64,000 bases of DNA from Chitinispirillales bacterium (GCA_031283085.1 JAITCM010000039.1:1-64000); one strand, 5' to 3'; counted from the stretch's first letter, positions 27,802 to 53,831 are shown. The notes: generated from the letters alone by a model not told the origin. Made by a program: numbers and translations.

Positions 27802-29289
27802 TTACCTCGGCATAAACCGTATTTTGCCTTGAGCCATAACCCTGCCCATCGTTTCAACTCTCCAAATCAGCGCTTGGGAGGCGGCGTTCGGGTTCGCGTT
27901 GACCGTTGTTTGCGTTCCGCGCAGGCGCGTGGTTCGCACCAATCTTCCGCGGCTGTCGAAAATTTTCAAAATTGCCGTTTGCTCGCCGCCTAAATTATAT
28001 TTCAGCGTCCCGCGGTTATCAAACTTGAACGCCATTGCCCCGTTCTTCGCAACGGTTGGAACTCCGCTCGCGACAGGCGTTGTCCCCTCGCCATCTTCCG
28101 GCAGAGGCCTGAATCTGTTCGCGTTCGCCGGGGTAGCGGTTCTGATCCAGTCCCACCAATAGCGGATCTGCCACGTGTCGTACTCGTTGATGGCCTTGGC
28201 ATTGGTACCCTGCCACATGAAGCTGCGCAAGTCTCCCTGCCCGAAGACGCTGCCGTCGGACGCGGCGGGCGGCTTGTCAACGCCTACCGCGCCGTAGAAG
28301 TCGTACAGCCCGAACCCATGCCCTATTTCGTGCAACAGGACGCCCGACCCCGCACCGCCGCTCTTTGCCGCGGATATGACGGCGGTCGAAGGCAGGCGCT
28401 GCCCCCACCAACTGCCGTGCCCCGCCGCGCCGAAGTCATACTCCGTGCACCACAAATACAGGTCGACACGGGCGTATGGGTCGCCGCCATATTGATAATC
28501 CATGTTTCTCTTTATTGACGCCAGGTTATTTACCCTGGTCATCGCAACGGGCGCGCTCGCTATAAGGTTGCGAGGATGGTCGGCGGATGCCGGGCCGGGA
28601 TTATCATACGTATTGTTTACCCATACCGCTTCGTTCGGCTGCCTGTCGAGAATTTTGGCGCCATCGCTGACCGCCCACCCCGAAACTTTCACGGAGATTT
28701 CCTGAAAGGGCCAGCCCTCCATGCCGATAATCGGGCGCATCCACTCATTGACCGCCTCGTGAAGCATAGACGCTATCTGCCTGCGCTCTTCAAGCGTTAT
28801 GGACTTGGCGGTTTCCCACCTGACCCCGTAGTTGAGCGAGCCGTTGCCGTCCCATATCTGGTCGAAGATTGTGTTGTACCAATCCCAAGGCACATTTAAG
28901 GGCATATACGACTCGCGCGGATAGCGGTCGTTTTTCAGCCAGTCGAAATTTTCTTTCATATTCTGCGGTATACCGCTCATGTCCACCGGCACCGCGTCAA
29001 CCCACCGCGCGTATATCGTGGCATCCTGTGTAAATTTTGTACCCGCCGCGCCCGCGATTACCCGCGCTCCGCCGGCTGCCGCCGTCGTGAACCATCCCCT
29101 GAAGACATAACCGGGCCTTTTCGGGGCCGGCAACGGAGCGCCCGTCAGGCAGCCCTGGCTGTCGGTCGCGAACGTCTTCGGGGCGGGCGCGCCCGAGTAG
29201 TTCTTATCGAGGGTCAACGTGACCCCCGACGCCGACAACGCGAACGCCACTATCGCAAACGCCGCGCATAAAATCATTTGCTTCTTCAC
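27802..29289 (-). CDS. Secreted metzincin-like zinc metalloprotease with InlB repeat and C-terminal sorting-type domain
   Basis: 495 aa. A signal peptide covers residues 1-22. An InlB/Listeria-Bacteroides repeat follows ('PKRPGYVFRGWFTTAAAGG ... ATIYARW', about 53-97). The catalytic region carries 'LLHEIGHGFGLYD' (320-330), an HExxHxxGxxD zinc site, with a possible Met-turn in 'SFMWQG'. The last 75 residues ('KYNLGGEQTAILKIFDSRGR') resemble the T9SS/FlgD-like C-terminal domains seen on exported proteins in this phylum. The start is a GTG at 29289 with GGAGG 7 bases upstream. It most likely digests protein outside the cell. The exact peptidase family is uncertain. Confidence 0.8.
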   Translation of the reverse strand: MKKQMILCAAFAIVAFALSASGVTLTLDKNYSGAPAPKTFATDSQGCLTGAPLPAPKRPGYVFRGWFTTAAAGGARVIAGAAGTKFTQDATIYARWVDAVPVDMSGIPQNMKENFDWLKNDRYPRESYMPLNVPWDWYNTIFDQIWDGNGSLNYGVRWETAKSITLEERRQIASMLHEAVNEWMRPIIGMEGWPFQEISVKVSGWAVSDGAKILDRQPNEAVWVNNTYDNPGPASADHPRNLIASAPVAMTRVNNLASIKRNMDYQYGGDPYARVDLYLWCTEYDFGAAGHGSWWGQRLPSTAVISAAKSGGAGSGVLLHEIGHGFGLYDFYGAVGVDKPPAASDGSVFGQGDLRSFMWQGTNAKAINEYDTWQIRYWWDWIRTATPANANRFRPLPEDGEGTTPVASGVPTVAKNGAMAFKFDNRGTLKYNLGGEQTAILKIFDSRGRLVRTTRLRGTQTTVNANPNAASQALIWRVETMGRVMAQGKIRFMPR

Positions 29290-38713: not shown

Positions 38714-40771
38714 ATGCCAAAAGACAGCGAAAACACAAAAATAGCCCGACAGTTCCTGACGCTATTCAACTGCTCCATGCTCTACGGCAGCGGGCATCCC
38801 AACACGCTAAAAAACGCGGCGGCGTTCGCCGATATGGTCAACGGATACATGAACGGCAACGGTATGCTCACCGTCATCTCGCACAACGGAGCGCTGGTGA
38901 TAGAAGACTCCCCGGTTGACCGTATGTTGAACGTGAGCAAGCTGGTCTCGCACTTAGAGCGTTTGTCGGTGACCTCCGTGAGTTTTGAGCGCGGTGTCCC
39001 CGCGGAGAGCGTAGCGCGGCTCATGGAGCTTGCCGGCGACGGAAACATAGAGGCTATGGAGCGGTACAAAACCGCTTTGGCGGACATGGCGCGCGGCGCG
39101 GCGACGGTGCGCGGCATTCGTATCAACTATGTGCAATACGGCAAAATCTCGGCGGACGAGGTGGTCGTAAAAGCCGCGGACGTCGGGGCGCCGAACGGGG
39201 CGGGCGGGGGCGGCGGCGCGTCGAACCTCTCCACGGCCAACCTGAGCCGCCAGGCCGCCGCCCAGATAGAACATTTTCTGACGCTCTCGGCACTGCTTGA
39301 GAAGCCCAAAGAGGTGTCCGAGGCCCTGGCGCACTCGGACACGCAGACCATCTCGATAGACGCCCTGCAGGGAGCATTCGGCAAAATCAGGGGCGAGATA
39401 GACTCCTCCGAGACATACAACGTGGACGAGCTCTTAGAGTCTCTGCATCACCTGCGCACCGACCTGTACGAGGCGATAGAGGTGCAAAAGGCCACCGGAA
39501 GGATGATGCGTTCGGCGGCGGTCATCAACAAGGAACTCGGCGACCTGACGGCGCACGCGATTGTCAAACTCGTCCGCGACGAGTACGGTTCCGGCAAGGC
39601 GCCAATCAACCGTCTGGCGCATACGATACGCCGTATGCTGCCGAACAACGCGGAGCTTTTGAACATTCTTCCGCAGATGAAAGCGATGCTGCTTGCGGAC
39701 GGCATGAGCCTCGGCGACTATTTAGAGCTGGTGCGGGCGCTGGGGCTGAAGGTCGAGAGCGAGTCGCTCTCCGAATCGCTTCGGGAGGCGGCGGACTCCG
39801 TCGGGGCGACGGTTTCCGACCTTGTGGAGGCTATACGGTCGAAACCGGCGGAGGCGGCGAGCCTGATACTTCTCGCCTCCGAGGTGCGTCAGGCCACCGG
39901 GGAGGGGGATTCGGGGCTGCCGGGGGCGCTGGCCGCGTACGTAGAGGAGGTCTGCTCGAAAATCGCCGTTGACAGGTGCGGCGCGGCCGGCGGCGGAGGG
40001 GCGCTCAAGGGGGTGCTGGCGCAGTTGGAATCGCAGATGTACGCGCAGCTGTCGAAGCGCGGGGTGCCCAAAGCGGTGATGGCGCAGGTGAAGGAGCGTT
40101 TGAACGCCCGCTTCGGCGAGACGCTGGCCGGAGCGGGGAAAGCGCTGTCTTCGACCGCGCTCAGCCCCCGTGAGCCCCAAAACCGCTCATTGAGCGAAGT
40201 CGAACCTGTTTATCTCGGCGCAAGCCAAATGAGCGAAGCCGAACCTGTTCACTCCAGCGTAAGCCAAATCGGTGCCGGAAAGAAAAAGGCCGCCGGCAGG
40301 GTCAGGATGCCGGCTGAGGCGCTTAACGCGGGCAATATGTTATTCCTTATTAATAAGGAAATCAAGCGGAACCTGCGCTACAGGTCGCCCTTCGCGACGC
40401 TCATCGTATCTATGGAAAAGGTGGCAATCGACGGCTCCGGGCCGCGCCCGCTCTCCCCGGAGGACACGGCGGAGCTGTTGCCGCAACTCTTCAAGCATAT
40501 TCAGGCGCTGCTGCGCGACGTGGATATGCTCGGGACGATAAACGCGGAGGAGACTGCGGCGCCGGAACTCTTCATCCTGCTGCCAATGGTCGGGGCGGAG
40601 GGGACGGATACGGTCAGGGAACGGATAGTAAAAACGGCGTCGGAGAGCGGGTTCGAGCGCGCCGGACGGAAAGCGGCGGTGGAAGTGAAGGTGTCGGCAA
40701 CGGTTCCGGGGGAGTATACCAGGGATTTGAAGAGCTATTTGAGGGCGGCGAAGGGGAATCACTCTAAATAA
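38714..40771 (+). CDS. Uncharacterised cytosolic protein with a degenerate GGDEF-like C-terminal domain
   Basis: 685 aa, no signal peptide or membrane helix. The N-terminal 140 residues ('QFLTLFNCSMLYGSGHPNTL', 'SVTSVSFERGVPAESVARLM') resemble the helical domain of proteins that monitor cell state, but I cannot name it. The middle is helical, with Gly/Ala-rich linkers. The final 150 residues look like a nucleotidyl-cyclase fold: 'LINKEIKRNLRYRSPFATLI', 'LLRDVDMLGTINAEETAAPE', 'LFILLPMVGAEGTDTVRERI'. The GGDEF signature itself is absent, so a catalytic role is unlikely. Just before this domain lie 'SLSEVEPVYLGAS' and 'MSEAEPVHSSVS', encoded by a repeat shared with holB. Confidence 0.6.
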   Translation: MPKDSENTKIARQFLTLFNCSMLYGSGHPNTLKNAAAFADMVNGYMNGNGMLTVISHNGALVIEDSPVDRMLNVSKLVSHLERLSVTSVSFERGVPAESVARLMELAGDGNIEAMERYKTALADMARGAATVRGIRINYVQYGKISADEVVVKAADVGAPNGAGGGGGASNLSTANLSRQAAAQIEHFLTLSALLEKPKEVSEALAHSDTQTISIDALQGAFGKIRGEIDSSETYNVDELLESLHHLRTDLYEAIEVQKATGRMMRSAAVINKELGDLTAHAIVKLVRDEYGSGKAPINRLAHTIRRMLPNNAELLNILPQMKAMLLADGMSLGDYLELVRALGLKVESESLSESLREAADSVGATVSDLVEAIRSKPAEAASLILLASEVRQATGEGDSGLPGALAAYVEEVCSKIAVDRCGAAGGGGALKGVLAQLESQMYAQLSKRGVPKAVMAQVKERLNARFGETLAGAGKALSSTALSPREPQNRSLSEVEPVYLGASQMSEAEPVHSSVSQIGAGKKKAAGRVRMPAEALNAGNMLFLINKEIKRNLRYRSPFATLIVSMEKVAIDGSGPRPLSPEDTAELLPQLFKHIQALLRDVDMLGTINAEETAAPELFILLPMVGAEGTDTVRERIVKTASESGFERAGRKAAVEVKVSATVPGEYTRDLKSYLRAAKGNHSK
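40187..40243 (+). repeat. Copies of the TCATTGAGCGAAGTCGAA repeat inside a coding gene
   Basis: TCATTGAGCGAAGTCGAA at 40187-40204 is an exact match to the reverse complement of the holB copies. A diverged copy follows (AAATGAGCGAAGCCGAA, about 40227-40243). Both stay in frame (SLSEVEP, MSEAEP) and fall in the linker before the last domain. Confidence 0.75.
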
Positions 40772-40921: not shown

Positions 40922-42784
40922 ATGAAGCGTGTAAATTCGGCTGTTCTTGTGGCGATTTTGACGGGGGCGTTGCTCTATTTGCCGGGTTGCGACAGTCCGG
41001 CCAAACCTGATGAGGGCAATAATAAGAAAGAATACAGTCTCTCGGTATCCGCGTCGCCGCAGGATGGCGGGAGTGTGGGCGTGTCCCCGGCAACCCCGGC
41101 TTCGGGGAAGTACGAGAGCGGAACTAAAGTGACGCTCAGGGCCGACTCGGCGGACGGTTACACATTTTTTGGCTGGGACGGCGATACGTCCGGCAACGCA
41201 AACCCGCTGACCGTAACAATGAACGCAAATAAGTCGTTTACGGCGATTTTCCAACCGGAGGCGGTAACGCAGCCCGCCGACACATCGTACAAACTCACGG
41301 TAACAAGAGCGCCGCCGGAGGGCGGGAGCGTGACTGTGTCCCCCGATTCGGCGGCGTACCGGCCCAACGTTACGGTTTCATTGACGGCTACGCCGGAAAG
41401 CGGCTACGAGTTTGCCGATTGGTCGGGCGACAGGACTGGCAGCAACAGCACGCTATCCGTCACAATGACTAAGGACATGGCGGTGACGGCGAATTTCCGG
41501 CCGCGTGCGGTAACGCCGCCGGTCGGCGGCCTTGACGACGGCGGGCCGGCGCCGTGGGAACCCTCCTATTCCTGTTCGGGCGCCACCGACACGCTCGACC
41601 TTACAAAGGATAATTTGGGCCTTACCGAACATTACGCCATCGTCAAGTTCAACAACGGCGCCGCGCCGGAGGTAACGTATTCCGACAGCAATATGTACGA
41701 AAACATTCTCACCGTTTCCGGGGAGCACATTACTTTCAAGGTCAGTTACTACTACGCCGAGAGCGACATCTCATTCGGCATAATAGTGTCCGGGATTGCC
41801 CAAAACGGGTCGTTGCGGATAGAGGACGAGAACGGCAGGGGCTACCGCAAGACGCTATACCTCAACGGGGTTAACATCACCAACCGGACGGGGCCGGCTA
41901 TAAATATCCAGAGCAACAAGCGGACGGACGTGCACTTAGTCGGGAGTTGCGGGCGGCGCAACATTATCAACGGGCGTGGAATCGACACGCCGCAGGGGGC
42001 GGAGCAGGCTAAGGGGACGCTTTTCGCCGAGGGGACGCTTGTTTTTGGGGGGGCCGGGTCGCTTGAGGCGCGCTCCACGGCAAAGCACGCTATCGTCTCG
42101 GACGAGAACATTGAGGTAAAAGGCGGGAACATCATCATCTACGAATCGGCCGGCGACGGCATCCACGCCAACAATAAAATCACCGTGAACGGTGGAACGC
42201 TGCAAATCAAGTGCGTGGGGGACGCCATCCAAAACGAGAGGAAATCATCGCCTGTAACCATCAACGGCGGCAAGGTTACAATTCGTACCACCGGCCCGAA
42301 AGGGCACGGCATAGTCAGCGACAGCAGCGATATTGTCATAAGCGACAGCTTGAGCCGTCCGGATATCAACATAACCCTGACGGGCAACGGTTCCAAAGCT
42401 ATCAGGGCGCACGGCAATGTTACGGTAAACGGCGGGGGCATCCGCCTGGAGGCGTACGGGGCGCGGGAGTCGGTTTCGGACGACACGAGTTCCGCCGCCG
42501 GAATCAAGGCGAACGGCAATGTTACTATCACAAAAGGGACGCTGACCGTTAAGGCCGTGAGGAACAGCGAAAACGGCAAAGGGCTCAACGTTGACGGCAA
42601 CGTAATCGTCAGCGGCGGCACCGCGGACATAGCCGCCGACGGCGACGGCGTAAGGGTGAGAGGCTCGTTCACAATAACCGGCGGCACACTCAAATCGCTA
42701 TCGGCGCACAAGAAAGATATTGACTGTGACGGGGCAATTAACGTTACCGGCGGCACGCTGGAAGCGCCTAACAGGAATAAATAA
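40922..42784 (+). CDS. Beta-helix carbohydrate-binding lipoprotein (Cthe_2159-like) with two divergent InlB-type repeats
   Basis: 620 aa. A lipobox ends in Cys ('LLYLPGCDS', about residue 23). Two divergent InlB B-repeat domains follow (about 38-115 and 120-195: 'YTFFGWDGDTSGNANPLTVT' and 'YEFADWSGDRTGSNSTLSVT'). From about 225 to the end runs a right-handed beta-helix with repeated 'GNVTVNGG', 'DGIHANNKITVNGGTLQIK' and 'GGTADIAADGDGVRVRG' turns, as in the Cthe_2159 family, whose founder binds acidic plant glycans and calcium. It probably sits on the cell surface. GGAGG lies 9 bases before the ATG. It is the first gene of the VTC/DUF4956/CotH cluster. Confidence 0.82.
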   Translation: MKRVNSAVLVAILTGALLYLPGCDSPAKPDEGNNKKEYSLSVSASPQDGGSVGVSPATPASGKYESGTKVTLRADSADGYTFFGWDGDTSGNANPLTVTMNANKSFTAIFQPEAVTQPADTSYKLTVTRAPPEGGSVTVSPDSAAYRPNVTVSLTATPESGYEFADWSGDRTGSNSTLSVTMTKDMAVTANFRPRAVTPPVGGLDDGGPAPWEPSYSCSGATDTLDLTKDNLGLTEHYAIVKFNNGAAPEVTYSDSNMYENILTVSGEHITFKVSYYYAESDISFGIIVSGIAQNGSLRIEDENGRGYRKTLYLNGVNITNRTGPAINIQSNKRTDVHLVGSCGRRNIINGRGIDTPQGAEQAKGTLFAEGTLVFGGAGSLEARSTAKHAIVSDENIEVKGGNIIIYESAGDGIHANNKITVNGGTLQIKCVGDAIQNERKSSPVTINGGKVTIRTTGPKGHGIVSDSSDIVISDSLSRPDINITLTGNGSKAIRAHGNVTVNGGGIRLEAYGARESVSDDTSSAAGIKANGNVTITKGTLTVKAVRNSENGKGLNVDGNVIVSGGTADIAADGDGVRVRGSFTITGGTLKSLSAHKKDIDCDGAINVTGGTLEAPNRNK

Positions 42785-42789
42785 CGCAG

Positions 42790-42808
42790 GGGCGAACGGT
42801 GTTCGCCC
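42790..42808 (+). terminator. Hairpin between the beta-helix gene and the VTC gene
   Basis: GGGCGAAC-GGT-GTTCGCCC, then GTTTTC. It lies in the 58 bases between the two genes and may act as a weak terminator or processing site that lowers expression of the downstream genes. Confidence 0.6.
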
Positions 42809-42842
42809 GTTTTCTCAATTACAGGGGGAGGTACCGGCACTG

Positions 42843-43637
42843 ATGGAAAGCGCAATACAAACATATTTGGCGCCCTTTCAGAGGGCGACACTGGAGGACG
42901 CGGCGCGGGTATCGTTCCTGCACCGGTACGACACTAAATTCGTCCTGCCCACCGACGGTGTTCCGATATTTTTGAACGCCATAAAGGACACCTACTCGCT
43001 GCTCGAGATAGAGGGGATAACGGCCCAGACCTACAACACTTTCTACTTTGACACGCCCGACCTGCTCTGCTTCAACCTTCACCACAACAAGCGGGCGCGG
43101 CGCTTCAAGTTCCGTACGCGAAAGTACATGAGCAACGGAAAGATATATAATGAAATAAAGCAGAAGCTCAACACCGGCAAGACCATTAAATTCCGCCAGC
43201 GGCGCGACGCGATGAACACGGAGCCGCCAATCCTGCCGGCGCTCGACGATTTGTCGGTTTTCGACGAGAGCTTCGCGACGTTGCTCGGGGCTAACGGCTA
43301 CGGCAACGTCGGAAAGCTCGTCCCGACGCTGCACGTCTCTTTCAACCGCCTGACTTTTTTGAACAAAATTTTCGCGGAGAGGATGACGCTCGACCTCGGT
43401 TTGGGCTACGGCTTCGGCGGCACGGAACTAAAGCTGCACGGCACGGCGATAGTCGAGCTGAAACGCGAGCGGGGACCGCAGCAGACCGTGGCGCAAGGGT
43501 ACTTCCGCTCCATACATAAGTGCCCGAGCGGCTTTTCAAAGTATACGATAGGCATATCGCTGACACACGGAGAGGCGAAGAAGAACCGCTTCCTGCCCAA
43601 AATAAGACACTTGGCCTTTGAAAGGAGCGCGGCGTAG
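42843..43637 (+). CDS. VTC-domain polyphosphate polymerase-like protein
   Basis: 264 aa soluble protein with the VTC/CYTH-type tunnel fold. Basic and acidic tunnel residues are visible in 'RVSFLHRYDTKFVLP', 'TYNTFYFDTPDLLCFNLHHN', 'KRARRFKFRTRKYMSNGKIY', 'NEIKQKLNTGKTIKFRQRRD' and 'AIVELKRERG'. In yeast VTC4 this domain makes polyphosphate from ATP; bacterial members paired with DUF4956 are annotated by homology only. Start: the ATG at 42843 after a GGGGGAGG tract; an in-frame ATG at 42720 lies within the preceding gene. The following DUF4956 membrane protein is its usual partner, so the product may be threaded to or across the membrane. Confidence 0.88.
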   Translation: MESAIQTYLAPFQRATLEDAARVSFLHRYDTKFVLPTDGVPIFLNAIKDTYSLLEIEGITAQTYNTFYFDTPDLLCFNLHHNKRARRFKFRTRKYMSNGKIYNEIKQKLNTGKTIKFRQRRDAMNTEPPILPALDDLSVFDESFATLLGANGYGNVGKLVPTLHVSFNRLTFLNKIFAERMTLDLGLGYGFGGTELKLHGTAIVELKRERGPQQTVAQGYFRSIHKCPSGFSKYTIGISLTHGEAKKNRFLPKIRHLAFERSAA

Positions 43638-43759
43638 AGGCGGTATGCGGTAAAAGACAGTACAGGTTACAGGAAAAACTTCCGGCGGTGGGTTTTGACG
43701 CGGAATAAAAAATAAAACCGATAATAATGTTAAATACGCATTTGCGAAAGGATTGTACA

Positions 43760-44584
43760 ATGATGCCGTGGAAAGTATTAACAACATTGATGATTGTATG
43801 CGCTTTGGGCGTTTCGACGGCCGTTTTTGCCCAAGACGGAGCGATTGAGGATGCGCTCGGCGCGTCCGACGGTAAGACGGACACCGTTTATACGCCTTTC
43901 GGCCCGCAGATTGAGAGCGGCAGCGTCAGCAGTCCAAGTAAGTCCGGCAAAGCCGGCAAAGCCGCCAAACAAACCGACTGGTGGGCGGGGGACGAGTTTT
44001 TCGGCGAGAAAGACTGGGCGTTCGTGGCCAAAATAGCGGTGCGTTTCATCATGAACATCGTGTTCGCCTACATCCTAATATGCTTCATCTTCGCGAAAGA
44101 GCACAGGATAAAGGAGTACGCGTTCTGTTTCTTCATCTCCAATATCCTGATATTCATGGTAACATCGCTCCTGGCCTACGTGAAGGTGAAAACCGGATTC
44201 GCCTTCGGCCTCTTCGCCATCCTGTCCATCCTGCGCTACCGCACGGAGCAGATACAGATACGCGAGATGACCTTCCTGTTCGCCTCCATAATAATGGGCG
44301 TGATAAATTCGATGGCGACGGACGGACTGATGCTCTTCGCCGTGTTCCTTGCCGACGTGCTGCTCTGCACAAGCATCGCTATCTGCGACAGCGCGTTCAT
44401 GGGGCGGACCGACCAAATGCTGTTAGTCTACGACAACACCGGACTGCTGGCCAAAGACAGGAAGAAGGAGCTATTCGAGGACATAAAAAGCCGGTTTGGG
44501 TACGATGTGGTGAAGGTGGTGGTAACCAAGATGAATTATTTGACGGACAGCGCGGAGGTGAAGCTGGTGTATAAGAGGGGGTAA
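43760..44584 (+). CDS. DUF4956 membrane protein with N-terminal signal segment
   Basis: 274 aa. A signal-peptide-like start ('VLTTLMIVCALGVSTAVFA') is followed by a disordered linker of about 60 residues rich in Ser, Gly and Lys. Three to four membrane helices come next ('IAVRFIMNIVFAYILICFIF', 'FISNILIFMVTSLLAYV', 'MATDGLMLFAVFLADVLLCT'), with the DUF4956 core 'AFGLFAILSILRYRTEQIQI'. The C-terminal 60 residues are a soluble alpha/beta tail. DUF4956 proteins occur beside VTC polymerases in many bacteria; their function is unknown. AAAGGA lies 8 bases before the ATG. The cleavable-looking signal plus long linker is unusual for the family. Confidence 0.85.
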   Translation: MMPWKVLTTLMIVCALGVSTAVFAQDGAIEDALGASDGKTDTVYTPFGPQIESGSVSSPSKSGKAGKAAKQTDWWAGDEFFGEKDWAFVAKIAVRFIMNIVFAYILICFIFAKEHRIKEYAFCFFISNILIFMVTSLLAYVKVKTGFAFGLFAILSILRYRTEQIQIREMTFLFASIIMGVINSMATDGLMLFAVFLADVLLCTSIAICDSAFMGRTDQMLLVYDNTGLLAKDRKKELFEDIKSRFGYDVVKVVVTKMNYLTDSAEVKLVYKRG

Positions 44585-44648
44585 AAGATAAAAACAATAA
44601 AAGTCAATTTTTTTAACGGTAAACTTAACCGCTTCCGTTGACATAATT

Positions 44649-44688
44649 CCCCTCTGTGGAGGGGTGCCCGAAGGGCGGGGCGGTGGTT
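44649..44688 (+). repeat. Double hairpin repeat of the CCCCTC..GAGGGG..GCCC-GAA-GGGC type
   Basis: CCCCTC-TGTG-GAGGGG at 44649-44664 is followed at once by GCCC-GAA-GGGC at 44666-44676 and then GGGGCGGTGGTTTTTG. This arrangement resembles a short intergenic repeat found in many unrelated bacterial genomes. With its T run it may also end the DUF4956 transcript before the barrel gene. Confidence 0.6.
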
Positions 44689-44719
44689 TTTGACGTTATC
44701 TTCGGAGGAATTATCGCCA

Positions 44720-46045
44720 ATGGCATCCCGTATCGGATTAAAAATTCTAACAATAGTATGCGCTTTCGGCGTTTGGGGGCTTGCTTACGCTCAGGATGAC
44801 GTCGATAACATCGATGAATCGTCCGAAGAATTAATCAATAGCGCTAATGACGTTGGCATTGACGGCGTTAATTCCGGCGATGTCGCCGATATTGCCGGCA
44901 AACCGAAGAAATCCTCCAGGTCCGGGAAATCAAAGAAGTCCGATAAACCGTCCGAAACCGAAGAATTATCAACTTCGCCGCCGCCTGAAAAATCGTCGGG
45001 CAACGCCGTCAAGGTCAAAGGCCTGGTGGCGGCGGGGGTGGATATTAACCGGAAAATCAGCGGCAAGAGCGGCACGGTTACGGTTGACCGCAACCGCGTG
45101 GGCAAGGGGGAGTTGGAATTCTCCGTCCAGCCGGTCAAAAAAGTACGGGCGGAAATAGGGATTGAGTACAATATAAACGGGCGGGTTCCCATAACCGACT
45201 CGCTATGGAGGCTAACCGTAACCCCTGACTCCGATATAGGCACATCCTACGTTACCGACGCCGGACTGGTCAATAAAACCGTGCTGGGCCCCTACGTAAC
45301 CATAGACAAACTCTACGGGCAGTACAACATCGTGAGCAACGGCGCCGTCCGCGCCGGCATAATGAAGAAATCTTTCGGACACGAGGAGCGGGCGGGGTTG
45401 GACGAGAGGTACTTCCTCAAGCGCTCTATCGTAAGCGACGGCCTCGATGAGTTAGGCTTCTTAAACCACGACCTGACCTTTTCCTACCGCCACGACCTGT
45501 CGAACGACCAACTGCGCCTGACCGGCGCTTTCTCGTGGCCCGTGGCCGACTCCCTCACCTACCTGCAAAACTACTCCGCGCAATACAAAATGAACGGAAA
45601 CATGGAGTTCATATTGGCGGGCGTAGTAAAGCATTACGCCGACAGCGCCAACCCCTCCACGACTTTCGCCGCCTCCCTGTCGTTTCGGCACGACGCCGCT
45701 CTCGTGAGCGAAGCGGAATTGACCGCAGGTACCAATCCGCTGATATGGGCGTTGAATTACAGAAAGACGACGCTCTTCGGCGCCCGCCTGCAGGAGCGGT
45801 TCCCCATAGATATCAACTCAAAAACCCTGCGCCGCGTAATCCCGGCGGTAGAAGCAGCCGTCTATACGGCCGACGCCGACAGCGGTCACGTGGATACCCA
45901 GATTCGGGCGGGCGTGGCGCTTTGCTTCGCCAAAAACAACGCCTTCCAATTCAGAAACAACTTCGGCACGGTCATCAGGACGGCGGACGGCGGCAGCAAA
46001 GCCAGGCGGTACAGGTTCGACAGTGAGGTTCTGGTCGTCTTCTAA
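44720..46045 (+). CDS. Predicted outer-membrane beta-barrel protein
   Basis: 441 aa, family not recognised. A signal peptide covers about residues 1-24 ('ILTIVCAFGVWGLAYA'). A disordered Ser/Lys/Asp-rich segment (about 25-95) resembles the linker of the DUF4956 neighbour. The rest alternates polar and hydrophobic residues in strand-length blocks with tight turns ('RAEIGIEYNINGRVPITDSL', 'AVEAAVYTADADSGHVDTQI'). It ends in 'RYRFDSEVLVVF', a terminal Phe as required by the BAM signal. Probably an outer-membrane channel or anchor for this cluster. GGAGGAA lies 9 bases before the ATG. Phosphate-selective porins are a possible relative, but I see no firm motif. Confidence 0.72.
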   Translation: MASRIGLKILTIVCAFGVWGLAYAQDDVDNIDESSEELINSANDVGIDGVNSGDVADIAGKPKKSSRSGKSKKSDKPSETEELSTSPPPEKSSGNAVKVKGLVAAGVDINRKISGKSGTVTVDRNRVGKGELEFSVQPVKKVRAEIGIEYNINGRVPITDSLWRLTVTPDSDIGTSYVTDAGLVNKTVLGPYVTIDKLYGQYNIVSNGAVRAGIMKKSFGHEERAGLDERYFLKRSIVSDGLDELGFLNHDLTFSYRHDLSNDQLRLTGAFSWPVADSLTYLQNYSAQYKMNGNMEFILAGVVKHYADSANPSTTFAASLSFRHDAALVSEAELTAGTNPLIWALNYRKTTLFGARLQERFPIDINSKTLRRVIPAVEAAVYTADADSGHVDTQIRAGVALCFAKNNAFQFRNNFGTVIRTADGGSKARRYRFDSEVLVVF

Positions 46046-46278
46046 TGTAAATGTAAAGCGCCATAACCCCGCAGGGGGCGGTTAATTTATACCATATAAG
46101 TACGTAATCTTAATACAAAAATAATTCAAAAAAAATCGCGCATTCCGGCGCGTCCGCGTATATATTGATAATACCGTGTAATTATTTTGTAAAAGATGTG
46201 TATATTCGGATTTTTTTTTGGTATATTATATAATTATATGACAATATTTCAATGAACAATTAATTAAGGAGGCATGAT

Positions 46279-48024
46279 ATGCCCGCGTCAACGAAAAAGA
46301 ACCTGTTTGGATTCAAACTGGCGCTGCTGGGGGCGGCGGTTTTGGCGGCTAACTCGTTTGCGGCGTTGCCGGAGATGAGGATTACAGCGAGCAAAGAACC
46401 GACATCGAGAAGCGGCGGTAGCTGCCCGGGCGCCTGGTCTGCCGCGACAGGTACGCACTTGTTCGATTATGTTGCCGTAACAAACTTTCAAATTACGGGC
46501 GCAAGCGTCGCAAAGGACAACATTACCAGAAGTTCGAAGCCCGACTCTTTAAGGCTGCGCGGAAATTCTACCGCGGACGCGACAAAAAAACCATACAGGA
46601 TAAAGTTCGGCGAAAAAGTCTCCCTCTTCGGCAAAGAAGCGGCTAAAAGCTGGGTTCTGCTCGCTAATTACTACGACGGAACATTCGCGCTAAACGCCAT
46701 TGCCTTTGAGATGGGCACACGAATGGGCCTCGAATACACGAACTCTTCCCAATTGGTGGATTTGTACATAAATAACCAGTATAAGGGTATTTACCAGCTT
46801 ACGGAGCAGGTTCAAGCCAATGACGCAAGGGTTAACCTGAGGGAAAAGCACAGAGGCTGGCTCATGGAGCTTGACTACCACGCCCCGGCGTCGGACGAGT
46901 GCAAACAGGCGTTTGTCGCTGACCCCGCCCCCTCGTCCGGCGGCGGCCAATGTTATTATAACTGCCCTCCGGCTACCACCAGCGGCAATTACAACCTCAC
47001 CTTATTCATAAAGTCGCCGCAACTGGACGACACGTCGTTTACGAGGAACCCGAACGATTCGTCATCGCTTCGTTTTGTTAAGACCGACATTAATAACCTT
47101 GTCACTAAAATGAAAGCGAGCAACTTCCCGGAAAACGGCTACCGCGACATGATAGACCTTGACAGTTACGCTAAGTATGTGTTGATACAGCTGGTTTTGG
47201 ACAACTTTGACTTCAACAGCAAAACTCAGACAGGGGGTCTGCCGGGTTCAAATTACCTTTACAGGAGAGACAGTAGCAGCTCCTCGAAAATCAAGGCGGG
47301 TCCGCTTTGGGATTTCGACTTGGCGGCGGGCGTGAGGAATGACGGGGGTGGCTTTTGCTTTTCCGGTCAACAATGCCCTCCCGGTTTTCCACAGCATTAC
47401 CAAACTTACCAGGACCCTGTCACGCCTACCAGCCAGAATTACAGCCACGCTTTCTACAAGAGGCTTTGGGAGGACAAAGTGTTCAAGGCCAAGTACAAGA
47501 AATTGTGGCTTAAGCACAAGAGCGATTTCCAGGCCATGAGTTCGCTTATAGACAACATAAAATCCCAAGTGGAAAACAGCGTTGAGAGTAAAGGCGCCAA
47601 CGCGTGGGCCAATAACACAATGATGGGCGGCGGCACATTGACCAGGAATCAATTCAACACCGAAGTCACCAACCTGAAAACGTGGCTGACCAACCGAATC
47701 AATTGGGTTGACGGGCAAATTAACGTGAACAGTATCGACACATCTTGGGACATCCAGAGCTCGCCGGAATATCCGACGCCGGTAGTGTCGTCGGCCCCGG
47801 CCAAATCAGGCAACAGCCTGTCGGTAGTCAAAAACGGCCTGAATATAAGCGCAACCGCCAACGCGTCGATGAAAGTCTTCTCTTTATCCGGTGTCAAGGT
47901 GCGCAATCAGTCTTTCTCGGCCGGAACCTACGCCGTAAAATTAGGCGACCTGCCGCAGGGGGTGTACCTGGTGCGAGTGAACTTAGACGGGGTTAAGAAG
48001 ACGGTGCGGGTGCCGGTGCGGTAA
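46279..48024 (+). CDS. Secreted CotH-kinase family protein with C-terminal sorting-type domain, copy 1
   Basis: 581 aa. Signal peptide about 1-29. The CotH fold shows 'RLRGNSTADATKKPYRIKFG' (nucleotide-side strand with Lys), 'LVDLYINNQYKGIYQLTEQV', and the catalytic acidic pair region 'LVLDNFDFNSKTQ' with 'IKAGPLWDFDLAAGVR'. CotH kinases phosphorylate Ser in spore-coat and some pathogen proteins. A Cys-rich insert ('CYYNCPPATT') is unusual. The end ('MKVFSLSGVKVRNQSFSAGT', 'GVYLVRVNLDGVKKTVRVPV') looks like a type IX-type C-terminal signal, so the kinase is probably outside the cell. AAGGAGG lies 6 bases before the ATG. A second copy follows. Confidence 0.87.
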   Translation: MPASTKKNLFGFKLALLGAAVLAANSFAALPEMRITASKEPTSRSGGSCPGAWSAATGTHLFDYVAVTNFQITGASVAKDNITRSSKPDSLRLRGNSTADATKKPYRIKFGEKVSLFGKEAAKSWVLLANYYDGTFALNAIAFEMGTRMGLEYTNSSQLVDLYINNQYKGIYQLTEQVQANDARVNLREKHRGWLMELDYHAPASDECKQAFVADPAPSSGGGQCYYNCPPATTSGNYNLTLFIKSPQLDDTSFTRNPNDSSSLRFVKTDINNLVTKMKASNFPENGYRDMIDLDSYAKYVLIQLVLDNFDFNSKTQTGGLPGSNYLYRRDSSSSSKIKAGPLWDFDLAAGVRNDGGGFCFSGQQCPPGFPQHYQTYQDPVTPTSQNYSHAFYKRLWEDKVFKAKYKKLWLKHKSDFQAMSSLIDNIKSQVENSVESKGANAWANNTMMGGGTLTRNQFNTEVTNLKTWLTNRINWVDGQINVNSIDTSWDIQSSPEYPTPVVSSAPAKSGNSLSVVKNGLNISATANASMKVFSLSGVKVRNQSFSAGTYAVKLGDLPQGVYLVRVNLDGVKKTVRVPVR

Positions 48025-48057
48025 AAAAGCAGTTACAAGTTACAAGGCGGTATGTAG

Positions 48058-48079
48058 GGGCGGGCCCGTGCGGCCGCCC
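48058..48079 (+). terminator. GC-rich hairpin between the two CotH-like genes
   Basis: GGGCGG(G)CC pairs with GGCCGCCC around a five-base loop, followed by TTTT. It is related to the palindromes at 1840, 49851 and 50868. It lies just before the AAGGAGG site of the next gene, so it may reduce rather than stop readthrough. Confidence 0.6.
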
Positions 48080-48099
48080 TTTTAAGGAGGAGATATGCA

Positions 48100-49773
48100 A
48101 TGCCGGTATCAACACAAAAAACCGCGTTTCTGTTCAGGCTCGCCGTACTTGCCGTAATGTTGCTTGCCGTCCACTCGTTTTCGGCTCTCCCGGAACTCAA
48201 GGTCAGCACCTTGAGCAGGGCCGCCATAAACTCGCCCGCGGCGACGCTGTTTACGCAGGCGCAGCAGACCGCAAACAACTGCCAAAACCACCTTATTTAC
48301 ACTCACAGGTACGTCCCCATGACGCTTACGCTGACCGGCACGGGCAACACGGCGTACGACATTTCCGTGTCGGGGTACAGGGACTCTATCCGCGGGCGAG
48401 GCAACTCCACCTGGGCCGGGGACAAGAAGCCCTACAGAATAAAATTCAACGAAGCCAAGGCGATGTTCGGGTCGAAAAAGCACAAAAGCTGGGCGCTTTT
48501 GGCCAACTGGTACGACCAGACGTTTACCTTAAACGCCGTCGGGTTCGAGTTGGGCAAACGCGTAGGGCTTGAGGGCACCCCCAACCAGTACCTCGTGGAC
48601 TTCTATCTAAACGATGAATACAAGGGGATTTACCAGATAACGGACATAGCCCACGTGAACAAGGGGAGGCTGGAGATAGACGAGAACGAGGGCTGGCTTG
48701 TCGAGTTCGATTACCACTGCCCAAGCACCTCGGACGAGGTTGATTTTGCCACCGATTATCCGAACTCGCCGTCCGGTTCCAAGCTGCACACATTCATAAA
48801 GTCGCCGGAAGATTTGCCGAACCTGTCCGGTTACAATTTTGTGAAAAACGACGTAAATAACCTTATGAGGGCGATGTTTGCGGTAACCGGTTTCCCGGAG
48901 AACGGCTACCGCGATTTGGTGGACTTGGAGAGCGTCGCAAAATATTTGATGCTGGAACAGTTTTTGGATAATTTTGATTTTAACAACAAATCGAACGCTT
49001 CCGGCTTCCCGGCCTCAAATTTTTTTCACAAGGACAAAGGCGGCAAAATTAAGGCCGGACCCATTTGGGACCTGGATTTGACAGGGGGGGTGGAGTATAA
49101 CACTTTCCCCAAGCACTTTACGACGTATAGAACCCCTGTAATGCCGAGACACGCTTTTTACAAGAGATTTTTTGACGACCCCGTATTCCTGGCTAAATTT
49201 AAAAAGAATTGGATTAGGCATAAGCCGGATATTCAGGCAATGCCCGGTATGATTGATTCCATAGCCGCCGTCGTGCAGGGCTCCGTAGAGAGAAATTTCG
49301 CGCTTCAAATCGGCAGCCAGCCGTGTAATCCCACCTGCACACGGGGGAGCGGCGGGTTTCCCAATATGCCGCCGATTGTATTGGGGAATTTGCAGGCGTA
49401 CAGGGATGAAATCGCCAAATTGAAAACGTGGTGGGGCAACAGGATTACTTTCTTTCAACAGGAAATAGACAACATGAACATCGACACCACAAAGGACATC
49501 GCCGACCCTCCGGGCAACACGACGCCGGCAGCGCCGTCGGCGCGGCAACAAAAGCATACGGTCGGATTGAAGGTGGCCGAGAACTGGTTGACCTTAACGG
49601 CGAATAATCGGGCGGAAACGGTTATTGTCTCACTGAACGGAAACATTATAAGAAAGAATGTTTTCACAGCCGGAAGCCATTCGGTACGGCTGGGGGATTT
49701 GCCGAAAGGTATGTATTTGGTACGGGTGGAGCTGGACGGGGTTAGAAAGATGGCGCGGGTAGCGGTGAGGTGA
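48100..49773 (+). CDS. Secreted CotH-kinase family protein with C-terminal sorting-type domain, copy 2
   Basis: 557 aa paralog of the preceding gene with the same layout: signal peptide (about 1-28), CotH core, sorting-type end. Motifs are closer to the family norm: 'SIRGRGNSTWAGDKKPYRIK', 'YLVDFYLNDEYKGIYQITDI', 'FLDNFDFNNKSNASGFPASN' and 'KAGPIWDLDLTGGVEY'. The end is 'GMYLVRVELDGVRKMARVAV'. The pair likely arose by tandem duplication and may act on different surface substrates. AAGGAGG lies 9 bases before the ATG, and a hairpin terminator with T6 follows at 49851. Confidence 0.88.
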   Translation: MPVSTQKTAFLFRLAVLAVMLLAVHSFSALPELKVSTLSRAAINSPAATLFTQAQQTANNCQNHLIYTHRYVPMTLTLTGTGNTAYDISVSGYRDSIRGRGNSTWAGDKKPYRIKFNEAKAMFGSKKHKSWALLANWYDQTFTLNAVGFELGKRVGLEGTPNQYLVDFYLNDEYKGIYQITDIAHVNKGRLEIDENEGWLVEFDYHCPSTSDEVDFATDYPNSPSGSKLHTFIKSPEDLPNLSGYNFVKNDVNNLMRAMFAVTGFPENGYRDLVDLESVAKYLMLEQFLDNFDFNNKSNASGFPASNFFHKDKGGKIKAGPIWDLDLTGGVEYNTFPKHFTTYRTPVMPRHAFYKRFFDDPVFLAKFKKNWIRHKPDIQAMPGMIDSIAAVVQGSVERNFALQIGSQPCNPTCTRGSGGFPNMPPIVLGNLQAYRDEIAKLKTWWGNRITFFQQEIDNMNIDTTKDIADPPGNTTPAAPSARQQKHTVGLKVAENWLTLTANNRAETVIVSLNGNIIRKNVFTAGSHSVRLGDLPKGMYLVRVELDGVRKMARVAVR

Positions 49774-49850
49774 AAGGCAGTTACAAGTTACAAGGTACAA
49801 GGTAAAAGGTAAAAGACATTGGTTAGCTGTCAGATAAGATTGGGATGCAG

Positions 49851-49877
49851 GGGCGGCCATTCGCGGCGCCCTTTTTT
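49851..49877 (+). terminator. Intrinsic terminator of the CotH cluster
   Basis: GGGCG(G)CC / GGCGCCC stem with a short loop (ATTCGC region), followed by six T. It ends the + strand cluster that starts at 40922. Same family as the GC-rich palindromes elsewhere in the window. Confidence 0.7.
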
Positions 49878-50933: not shown

Positions 50934-53831
50934 TTACTTCTTCTTCGCGCCGCTCTTCTTCACGGTTTTCTTGGCGGGGGCCGACTTCTTGGCCACAGCC
51001 GGTTTTACCGCTTTCTTCTCTACCTTCTTCTCAGCCTTCTTCTCCGCTTTCTTGCCGGACTTCTTGGCGGAAGCAGACTTTTTTGCTGACGACGCGGGCT
51101 TCTTCGCTGCCCTCTTCGCTTTTATCTCCGCGTGCGCTGAGGCTAAGCGGGCGATGGGAACGCGGAAGGGTGAGCAACTCACGTAGTTTAAGCCTAAGCC
51201 GTAGAAGAACTCAACGGAAGCGGGGTCGCCGCCGTGCTCGCCGCAGACGCCGACTTTCAGCTTCTCCCTGACCGAGCGGCCGCGCTCAACGCCGTAGCGC
51301 ACCAACTGGCCGATACCGGGCTGGTCGATGCTGAGAAACGGGTCTTCGGGCAGGAGCTTCTTGTCCAAGTAGTCGCCCATGAAAGCGCCGATGTCGTCGC
51401 GGCTGAAGCCGAAACCCATCTGCGTCAGGTCGTTGGTGCCGAATGAGAAGAACTCCGCCACGGTAGCCATCTCGTTGGCGAGAAGCGCCGCGCGGGGGAT
51501 TTCTATCATCGTGCCGTAAAGGTAGTCGAAGTTCTTGAGCTCGTACTTCTTCTTGACCTCGTCGGCCACCTTGTCCACTATCGCTTTCTGGTGGGCGAGT
51601 TCCTTGGGAGTGCACGTTACCGGTATCATTATCTCCGGCGTGACCTTCGTGCCCTCCTTGCTCAACTCCGCCGCGGCTTCGAGTATGGCGCGTACCTGCA
51701 TCTCGGTGAGTTCGGGATAGGTGATGCCGAGGCGGACACCGCGATGGCCGAGCATGGGGTTGACCTCTTTCAGGCTCTCGCCGCGCTTCCTGACGTCACC
51801 GTAATCGATGCCTAACTTTTTGGCTAAGTCGCTTACCTTCTCCTGGCTCTCCGGCACGAACTCGTGCAACGGCGGGTCTAAGAGGCGGATGGTAACCGGG
51901 AAGCCGGCCATCGCGTGCATCGTCGCCTTGATGTCGCGCTTCACGAAGGGAAAGAGCTTATCCAAAGCGGCGCGGCGCTCCTGCACATTCTTGGACAGAA
52001 TCATCTGGCGCAGATAGCTTAACGGCTCGTCGCTGCCCTCGCCGTAGAACATGTGCTCGGTGCGGAAGAGGCCGATACCCTCGGCGCCGAAGCTGCGGGC
52101 GACCTTGGCGTCCGCCGGGGTGTCGGCGTTGGCGCGCACTTTCATAGACTTGTACTTGTCGGCGAGTTTGAGGAAGCTCTGGAAGCGCGGATTCTCGGTC
52201 GCGTCTATCATGGGGAGCGCGCTCTCGTATACGTTGCCCTTGGTTCCGTTGAGGGTGACGATGTCGCCCTCTTTGAGCGTCTTGCCCTTGACGACGATGG
52301 CCTTGGCCTTGGCGTCAATGTGGAAGTCGGCGGCGCCGACGATGCAGCACTTGCCCCAGCCGCGGGCGACAAGGGCGGCGTGGCTGGTCATGCCGCCTCG
52401 GGCGGTGAGAATGCCCTGCGCGGCGCGCATACCCTCGATGTCTTCGGGGTTTGTCTCCTCACGAACCAGAATAACATTCTTTGCCTTGCCGTTCTTGACC
52501 CAGTCCACGGCGTCCTGAGCGGAGAAGACTATCGCGCCGGAGGCGCCGCCGGGGCCGGCCGGCAAACCCTTACCGAGCACCGGGGCCTTCTTCTCGGCGA
52601 CGGGGTCGATGACCGGGTGGAGAAGCTCGTCGAGCTGCGCCGGCTTGACGCGCAACAGCGCCGTCTCGACATCTATCAACTTCTCTTCGAGCATATCCAT
52701 AGCCATATTGAGCGCCGCGAGGCCGGTACGCTTGCCGTCGCGAGTCTGCAGCATCCAAAGCTTGCCCTCCTGGATGGTGAACTCAAGGTCTTGCATATTC
52801 TTATAGTGCTTTTCAAGCTTCTTCTGGATGTCGTCGAGCTTCTTGTAGGCTTCGGGCATAACCTCCTCAAGGGATTTGAGGTGAGCGGTGTGCTCGCTCT
52901 TTGTGGACACATTGATGGGCGCCGGCGTGCGGATACCGGCGACGACGTCTTCGCCCTGGGCGTTAACGAGATACTCGCCGAAGAACTTCTTCTCGCCGTT
53001 GGCCGGGTTGCGGGTAAAAGCCACGCCGGTGGCGGAGGTGTCGCCCATATTACCGAAGACCATGGCCTGAACATTGGTGGCGGTGCCCCACTCGTGGGGG
53101 ATGCCCTCAATGTTGCGGTAGGCTATGGCGCGCCTGCCGTTCCAGCTCTTGAACACGGCGCCTATGCCGCCCTTGAGCTGCTCCATGGGGTCGTCGGGGA
53201 AGGACGATTTGAGGACTTCCTTGATACGAACCTTAAACTTCTCGCAGATTTCCTTGAGGTCGGCGACGTTCATGTCGGTGTCGCTCTTGTAGCCCTTGCG
53301 GTGCTTGAGCTCATCCATGATGCCTTCGAGCTGCTTGCGGATGCCGTTGTCGTCCTTGGGCTCTATGCCCTCGGCTTTCTCCATCACCACGTCGGAGTAC
53401 ATCATAATAAGGCGGCGGTAAGAGTCCCAGACGAAACGCTCGTTTTTGGTCTTTTCAACGAGTCCGGGTATGGTTTTGGAGCAAAGGCCGACATTCAGGA
53501 CGGTCTCCATCATGCCCGGCATGGACATACGGGCACCGGAGCGGCACGAGACGAGGAGGGGGTTCTTCGAGTCCCCGAATTTCATCTCCATGGTTTTTTC
53601 GACCGACTTGAGGGCCTTGTCGACCTGGCCCATTAGCTCCGCCGGGAACTTCATCTTGTTGGCGAAGTAGTCGGTGCAGCACTCCGTCGTGATTGTGAAA
53701 CCCGCCGGGACAGGCAGCTTCAGATTACACATCTCGGCAAGGTTCGCGCCCTTGCCACCCAACAAATTCTTCATCTCAGCGGTTCCGTCGGCTTTGCCGG
53801 GACCGAAGGAGTACACGTACTTTTTGGCCAT
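50934..53831 (-). CDS. ppdK: Pyruvate, phosphate dikinase with a Lys/Ala-rich C-terminal tail
   Basis: 965 aa cytosolic enzyme interconverting pyruvate + ATP + Pi with PEP + AMP + PPi, common in anaerobes that use PPi. The ATP-grasp domain ('LLGGKGANLAEMCNLKLPVP', 'SCRSGARMSMPGMMETVLNV'), the swivelling domain with the phospho-His ('GGMTSHAALVARGWGKCCIV') and the PEP barrel ('GIGLFRTEHMF', 'SFGTNDLTQMGFGFSRDDIG', 'KVGVCGEHGGDPASVEFFYG') are complete. The normal end, 'SCSPFRVPIARLASAHAEIK', is followed by about 60 residues of Lys, Ala, Ser and Glu ('KKAEKKAEKKVEKKAVKPAV'), not usual in PPDK. GGAGG precedes the ATG. Monocistronic. Confidence 0.96.
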   Translation of the reverse strand: MAKKYVYSFGPGKADGTAEMKNLLGGKGANLAEMCNLKLPVPAGFTITTECCTDYFANKMKFPAELMGQVDKALKSVEKTMEMKFGDSKNPLLVSCRSGARMSMPGMMETVLNVGLCSKTIPGLVEKTKNERFVWDSYRRLIMMYSDVVMEKAEGIEPKDDNGIRKQLEGIMDELKHRKGYKSDTDMNVADLKEICEKFKVRIKEVLKSSFPDDPMEQLKGGIGAVFKSWNGRRAIAYRNIEGIPHEWGTATNVQAMVFGNMGDTSATGVAFTRNPANGEKKFFGEYLVNAQGEDVVAGIRTPAPINVSTKSEHTAHLKSLEEVMPEAYKKLDDIQKKLEKHYKNMQDLEFTIQEGKLWMLQTRDGKRTGLAALNMAMDMLEEKLIDVETALLRVKPAQLDELLHPVIDPVAEKKAPVLGKGLPAGPGGASGAIVFSAQDAVDWVKNGKAKNVILVREETNPEDIEGMRAAQGILTARGGMTSHAALVARGWGKCCIVGAADFHIDAKAKAIVVKGKTLKEGDIVTLNGTKGNVYESALPMIDATENPRFQSFLKLADKYKSMKVRANADTPADAKVARSFGAEGIGLFRTEHMFYGEGSDEPLSYLRQMILSKNVQERRAALDKLFPFVKRDIKATMHAMAGFPVTIRLLDPPLHEFVPESQEKVSDLAKKLGIDYGDVRKRGESLKEVNPMLGHRGVRLGITYPELTEMQVRAILEAAAELSKEGTKVTPEIMIPVTCTPKELAHQKAIVDKVADEVKKKYELKNFDYLYGTMIEIPRAALLANEMATVAEFFSFGTNDLTQMGFGFSRDDIGAFMGDYLDKKLLPEDPFLSIDQPGIGQLVRYGVERGRSVREKLKVGVCGEHGGDPASVEFFYGLGLNYVSCSPFRVPIARLASAHAEIKAKRAAKKPASSAKKSASAKKSGKKAEKKAEKKVEKKAVKPAVAKKSAPAKKTVKKSGAKKK

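Follow-up and report, generated by a model that had tools for sequence, protein, structure and literature searches.

Why should a gene for a polyphosphate polymerase-like protein lie among genes for surface proteins? The question is raised by a cluster of six consecutive genes, all on the plus strand and at the coordinates first noted for them (40922-49773), in a 64,000-nucleotide stretch of DNA from a Chitinispirillales bacterium (GCA_031283085.1 JAITCM010000039.1:1-64000; hereafter the window). In order, they encode a Cthe_2159-type lipoprotein, a VTC protein, a DUF4956 membrane protein, an outer-membrane barrel and two CotH kinase-fold proteins (Table 1). We put at about one half the probability that the locus is a polyphosphate (polyP) synthesis-and-export module joined to surface effectors. 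The VTC protein would polymerise polyP from ATP in the cytosol and DUF4956, as its inner-membrane partner, would thread the chain through the membrane, as the membrane-spanning part of the eukaryotic VTC complex does. The barrel of this lineage would pass the chain or its products over the outer membrane, a part that HlyD/TolC-like proteins would play in a sister lineage, while the Cthe_2159 lipoprotein and the CotH proteins, the latter exported by type IX secretion, would use, bind or carry phosphate at the surface.

Conservation of the VTC enzyme

The VTC protein (264 amino acids) consists of the VTC domain alone, with no SPX domain detected by Pfam. A profile of 28 VTC relatives matches the yeast Vtc4 structure 3g3q (E 6e-20), indicating homology of the triphosphate tunnel metalloenzyme (TTM) fold. 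Residues R92, R94, K107, K117, R170, R181, E206, S233 and K234 are invariant in these relatives and correspond, in an alignment read with a numbering offset of 3, to Vtc4 R264, R266, K281, K294, R361, R373, E426, S457 and K458. The basic tunnel residues, the catalytic Glu and the SK pair of Vtc4 are all kept among the positions that could be mapped, and across 139 sequences the tunnel residues are 0.94-1.00 conserved. Because of the Vtc4 profile match and the conserved tunnel, the best reading of the protein is a predicted catalyst of polyP synthesis from ATP, a chemistry that is well supported at the level of sequence. In yeast, the cryo-EM structure of the VTC complex was obtained with R264A/R266A/E426N changes, and in that complex polyP synthesis is coupled to translocation (PMC9911596).

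The locus resembles the eukaryotic VTC complex (Vtc1/Vtc3/Vtc4) in that its catalytic TTM domain is homologous to Vtc4, keeps the tunnel residues that could be mapped and is paired with a membrane protein that has conserved basic residues. It differs in having neither an SPX domain nor a Vtc1-type three-helix channel; the membrane partner is a separate DUF4956 protein with no detected relation, and the pair is linked to exported kinases and, in some lineages, to outer-membrane proteins. Bacterial polyP has been described as a product of PPK1 and PPK2, and VTC is not mentioned in a 2022 review of PPK2. The bacterium's own genome (2.58 Mb, 91.5% complete), which holds one VTC, one DUF4956 and four CotH copies, also encodes PPK1, so VTC is not needed for ordinary polyP storage and presumably provides a second route, separate from PPK1.

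Linkage of VTC, DUF4956 and CotH

Within the phylum, most likely Fibrobacterota, 168 genomes were searched; VTC is present in 136 and DUF4956 in 133, and the two occur together in 132. VTC alone is found in four genomes (G010, G057 and G149, at contig ends, and G070) and DUF4956 alone in one (G035), while three (G014, G033 and G159) each carry one VTC gene of each strength class. Annotation of 60 neighbourhoods with profiles grown from the window proteins revealed two types of locus. Type 1, that of the window, has the order Cthe_2159-VTC-DUF4956-barrel-CotH (one to four copies), which recurs in several families, and in most type 1 loci VTC and DUF4956 share one base. Some families depart from this order, either with the barrel and CotH next to VTC-DUF4956 but encoded on the other strand (L056, L059) or with no barrel, so that CotH follows VTC-DUF4956 directly (L063-L065). 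Type 2 has the order DUF4956-HlyD-OEP/TolC-VTC-lamin-tail protein. In the VTC tree, which was built by FastTree and carries long-branch warnings, type 2 forms one side of a branch with a support of 99, and type 1 requires three changes, some of them probably short contigs without the barrel.

Outside the phylum, a genome scan seeded by DUF4956 alone, which therefore did not select for VTC or CotH, returned 79 loci besides one Fibrobacteres locus. These come from Krumholzibacteriia, Spirochaetes, Calditrichota, Kiritimatiellae, Verrucomicrobia, Planctomycetota, Desulfobacterales, Chlamydiae, Acidobacteria, Oligoflexia, Dehalococcoidia, Nitrospinaceae and others. DUF4956 has a VTC gene on its own strand in 76 of the 79, no more than 150 bp away in 73; a CotH gene accompanies the pair in 66 loci and, in 52, shares the strand at a distance of 300 bp or less. 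The refuting outcome named in the first-pass annotation, linkage kept among close relatives only, did not arise, as linkage extends across many phyla. Protein distances in 58 loci are correlated (r = 0.75 for VTC-DUF4956, 0.73 for VTC-CotH and 0.77 for DUF4956-CotH; none of 999 permutations was as high), as is expected from co-inheritance, so the correlation does not by itself prove contact. That the surface genes are merely neighbours under shared regulation, with no joint mechanism, is very improbable: in the window, intergenic gaps that reach 233 bases and the dispersed hairpins among the genes would suit such an arrangement, but order and close spacing are preserved across phyla, and CotH, expected by chance within 10 kb of DUF4956 at about 3% in the bacterium's own genome (4 copies in 2.6 Mb), is found in 66 of the 79 loci.

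Individual loci vary in their composition. Deinococcus taeanensis has CotH-VTC-DUF4956 and a Chloroflexi locus (L160) VTC-DUF4956-Cthe_2159. The control genome of Corynebacterium glutamicum scored positive for VTC, DUF4956 and CotH and is not among the genomes listed with PPK1. A Pseudoalteromonas plasmid carries a lamin-tail protein, a C-terminal VTC fragment, DUF4956 and a Porin_O_P porin (E 2e-47); here (L178, 7279-8561) VTC is apparently broken, with a 104-residue fragment left between the lamin-tail and DUF4956 genes. In Aminobacter, DUF4956-VTC is followed by a phytase-like protein (L179, 9381-10316), a possible polyP hydrolase. A frame of more than 1400 residues separates DUF4956 from VTC in a proteobacterial locus (L117) and in Brocadia (L129). 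A tblastn search of plasmids gave 17 records with the DUF4956 of L055 and no match with that of L063.

The CotH-VTC-DUF4956 trio is already known as a set of Pel accessory genes. Streptococci, clostridia and bifidobacteria carry genes for CotH, a polyP polymerase and DUF4956 in one uninterrupted run with pelDEADAFG (2020, PMC7112168), and mutants of SIR_1592 (DUF4956-type) and SIR_1594 (CotH) have altered Pel levels and reduced aggregation (2025, PMC12345266); the latter study did not find trio synteny outside the Pel locus. Here the trio is widespread, and PelG was not detected in the bacterium's own genome, the one genome searched for Pel. An association with Pel was rejected for this genome on that ground, and no pel genes were seen in the window neighbourhood. 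The Gram-positive set, CotH-polyP polymerase-DUF4956(-DUF4832), has the same three families, contiguous; the locus here adds the Cthe_2159 lipoprotein, the outer-membrane barrel and the type IX tails on CotH. VTC and CotH also share a locus in Clostridium perfringens NELoc-2 (VTC, 'tubulin', CotH; PMC2879425), which is Gram-positive, has a duplicated VTC pair and lacks an outer-membrane part; at a guess, its 222-226-residue 'tubulin/FtsZ' proteins beside VTC may be DUF4956.

The Pel reports suggest another role, in which the trio would support or regulate the making of surface polymers, its output being phosphorylated surface proteins or glycans, with no polyP exported. Contiguity with pelDEADAFG and the mutant effects on Pel and aggregation fit this role, as does the glycosyltransferase, the commonest domain beside the trio in other phyla, though in just 4 of 83 proteins. 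We consider it possible but doubtful, since the bacterium's own genome lacks PelG, the locus holds no polysaccharide synthase and most loci of other phyla have no recurrent polysaccharide partner; in those phyla no recurrent extra partner of the trio of any kind was found.

The membrane partner and passage across the envelope

An R-x-R-T motif that follows a short helix in DUF4956 is 0.98-1.00 conserved over 139 sequences. The first AlphaFold2 (AF2) model of DUF4956 was weak (pLDDT 67) and its fold search gave no match. The AF2 model of a Verrucomicrobia relative (L106; pLDDT 87) has helices at residues 18-42, 52-73, 76-88, 96-113 and 117-135 and a ferredoxin-like C-terminal domain, which in a fold search resembles the C-terminal domains of MgtC (2lqj, 7qa5). 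If the five helices span the membrane, the window protein would have its N-terminus outside, which fits a cleaved signal peptide, its C-terminal domain in the cytosol and R-x-R-T near the cytosolic face. Basic residues line the cytosolic entrance of the yeast channel (PMC9911596), and the likeness of R-x-R-T to this entrance is suggestive only. The signal sequences of DUF4956 and the barrel (43760-44000 and 44720-45020) are very similar, IVCA[LF]GV...A.AQD, and are followed by Ser/Lys-rich linkers (KSGKAGK, SRSGKSKKSDK) that recall the Ser/Lys-rich regions phosphorylated by Bacillus CotH.

The MgtC-like fold also admits a reading in which nothing passes the membrane: DUF4956 would regulate membrane energetics or phosphate handling, and VTC, under DUF4956 control, would act either as a phosphatase of the tunnel fold or as a polyP synthase in the cytosol. 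Some tunnel enzymes hydrolyse triphosphates. The authors of the 2025 mBio study suggest an MgtC-like membrane domain for a DUF4956-type protein (PMC12345266). This reading seems unlikely, as the VTC match is to Vtc4, with the tunnel and its SK pair retained, and as it leaves unexplained the frequent linkage to exported CotH and lamin-tail proteins and, in several lineages, to outer-membrane partners.

Those partners bear on export. A barrel homologue lies near VTC-DUF4956 in 21 loci; the family is conserved, its C-terminal residue is usually Phe, and 17 of the 21 members match the Porin_O_P profile (PF07396). In a sister VTC lineage of the same phylum, HlyD, OEP/TolC-like and lamin-tail proteins are found instead of the barrel, and this replacement, which lay beyond the view of the first-pass annotation, is the strongest clue. 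DUF2490 is an outer-membrane barrel family. For Bacteroides thetaiotaomicron, one paper lists DUF4956 and DUF2490 together as BT3498-99 (PMC10434189). That separate lineages place a barrel, an HlyD/TolC pair or DUF2490 beside DUF4956 argues that something crosses the envelope. One HlyD-like adaptor (L069, 11651-13609) continues into an additional C-terminal region whose SdiA-regulated match falls below the cut-off, and may be a polyP hydrolase.

Several points weigh against synthesis coupled to export. DUF4956 is unlike the yeast channel, the L106 model was matched through its C-terminal domain only, and because that domain is MgtC-like and the membrane part has no solved fold match, its role as a pore is inferred. 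A cationic barrel or linker as a path for the polyanion is unsupported by charge: the barrel has a mean net charge of +1.6, close to neutral, and the periplasmic linker a mean of -1. The match of the window barrel to Porin_O_P is weak (22.3 bits against a cut-off of 20.9) and covers part of the profile only; the likeness to the phosphate-selective porins OprO/OprP is thus limited to a weak hit above cut-off, with no strong full-length match, and the barrel-family profile found no match in the PDB. No recurrent outer-membrane family lies near the trio in the loci of other phyla, so outer-membrane crossing is not general. A literature search found no published biochemistry on any bacterial VTC, and papers on bacterial VTC export were not found in the open literature, where most subscription journals are missing. 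Export is best described as plausible.

At the surface, the CotH proteins have D311, D345 and D347 invariant in 17 sequences; these are putative active-site Asp residues, with a presumed equivalence to Bacillus D228. A single-sequence PDB search with the first CotH gave chance matches only. NCBIfam recognises type A tails of the type IX secretion system (T9SS) on both proteins, that of the second below the curated cut-off, and the bacterium's own genome has a SprA_N match in a frame of 2115 residues. Elsewhere in the window (27802-29289, minus strand) a protein that combines an InlB-like repeat with a T9SS-like C-terminal end is a further possible T9SS cargo. The proteins share with the Bacillus spore-coat kinase the CotH fold, conserved Asp residues and an exported or surface setting; they differ in that no spore is involved, they are linked to VTC-DUF4956 and their kinase activity is predicted. 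The characterised Bacillus CotH takes its phosphoryl group from ATP. Outside the cell, where ATP is scarce, CotH might tentatively be proposed to draw its phosphoryl groups from exported polyP, or the chain might itself be attached to surface proteins. A Cthe_2159 homologue adjoins VTC in about 20 loci of Fibrobacterota and in one of Chloroflexi; for the attachment to plant matter proposed in the first-pass annotation, the Cthe_2159 name is the sole footing.

Organisation of the locus and its biological meaning

The six plus-strand genes and their named domains, first recognised from the sequence alone, were recovered by Pfam and NCBIfam (Table 1), and a Shine-Dalgarno-like site was read ahead of each. 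Signal-like N-terminal segments were likewise read on the barrel, both CotH proteins and DUF4956, with none on VTC. The likely start codons are at 42843 for VTC, 43760 or 43763 for DUF4956 and 44720 for the barrel.

Table 1 Features of the gene cluster in the window.
Feature	Position	Strand	Profile matches
Lipoprotein, lipobox LPGC, two InlB-like repeats and Cthe_2159 beta-helix domain	40922..42784	+	Pfam PF14262 1e-38, PF18998 2.5e-28
Dispersed AGGGGCG...CGCCC hairpin copy	42788..42808	+	
VTC triphosphate-tunnel polyP polymerase-like protein, cytosolic, without signal peptide	42843..43637	+	Pfam PF09359 2.7e-20
DUF4956 inner-membrane protein, signal-like N-terminus, transmembrane helices	43760..44584	+	Pfam PF16316 3e-40
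Outer-membrane beta-barrel, distant Porin_O_P relative, C-terminal Phe	44720..46045	+	Pfam PF07396 9e-5
First CotH kinase-fold protein, signal peptide, T9SS type A tail	46279..48024	+	Pfam PF08757 2e-39; TIGR04183 5e-6
Dispersed AGGGGCG...CGCCC hairpin copy	48056..48079	+	
Second CotH kinase-fold protein, weaker T9SS type A tail	48100..49773	+	Pfam PF08757 6e-26; TIGR04183 6e-4
Dispersed AGGGGCG...CGCCC hairpin copy, then T-run; possible terminator	49849..49877	+	

The hairpins and the final T-run of the first-pass annotation are present, but the hairpins are copies of one dispersed element and were ruled out as operon-specific signals. The element has seven matches in the window against 0.51 expected, and since copies lie away from the cluster, at 1840, 50867 and 58785, it is not specific to it. 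The copies are intergenic and may be bidirectional terminators or a mobile repeat. Terminator-like sites in the region are not in excess (13 against 14.4 expected from shuffles), and an Rfam search gave no match. The gaps among the first five genes are 58, about 90-125, 135 and 233 bases, unlike those of relatives, in which the first four genes mostly overlap or nearly touch; with gaps of up to 233 bases, a single transcript across the cluster is not shown.

Two neighbouring genes were noted. Just 5' of the cluster (38714-40771, plus strand) is a 685-residue protein whose match to GGDEF is weak and degenerate (PelD_GGDEF 0.0015, below the cut-off). At 50934-53831 (minus strand) is a pyruvate phosphate dikinase-like protein with a Lys/Ala-rich, histone H1-like C-terminal tail of about 65 residues, unusual for this enzyme.

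The machine supplying phosphate to the surface that was first proposed fits the evidence in its idea and its list of parts; the set is not wholly undescribed, as had been thought, the trio being the Pel accessory genes (PMC7112168, PMC12345266). Its presence in many phyla corrects the report that confined it to Pel loci. If the preferred reading of synthesis and export is true, a widespread second, export-coupled polyP route would account for the shared neighbourhoods of VTC, DUF4956 and exported CotH or lamin-tail proteins; the DUF4956 family would gain a role, and the phosphate source of extracellular kinases would become testable. Were polyP also the donor for CotH, many bacterial phyla would have an ATP-free system of extracellular phosphorylation whose outer-membrane conduits are interchangeable. 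These findings suggest that many bacteria may export polyP that acts on their surface, a role not previously described.

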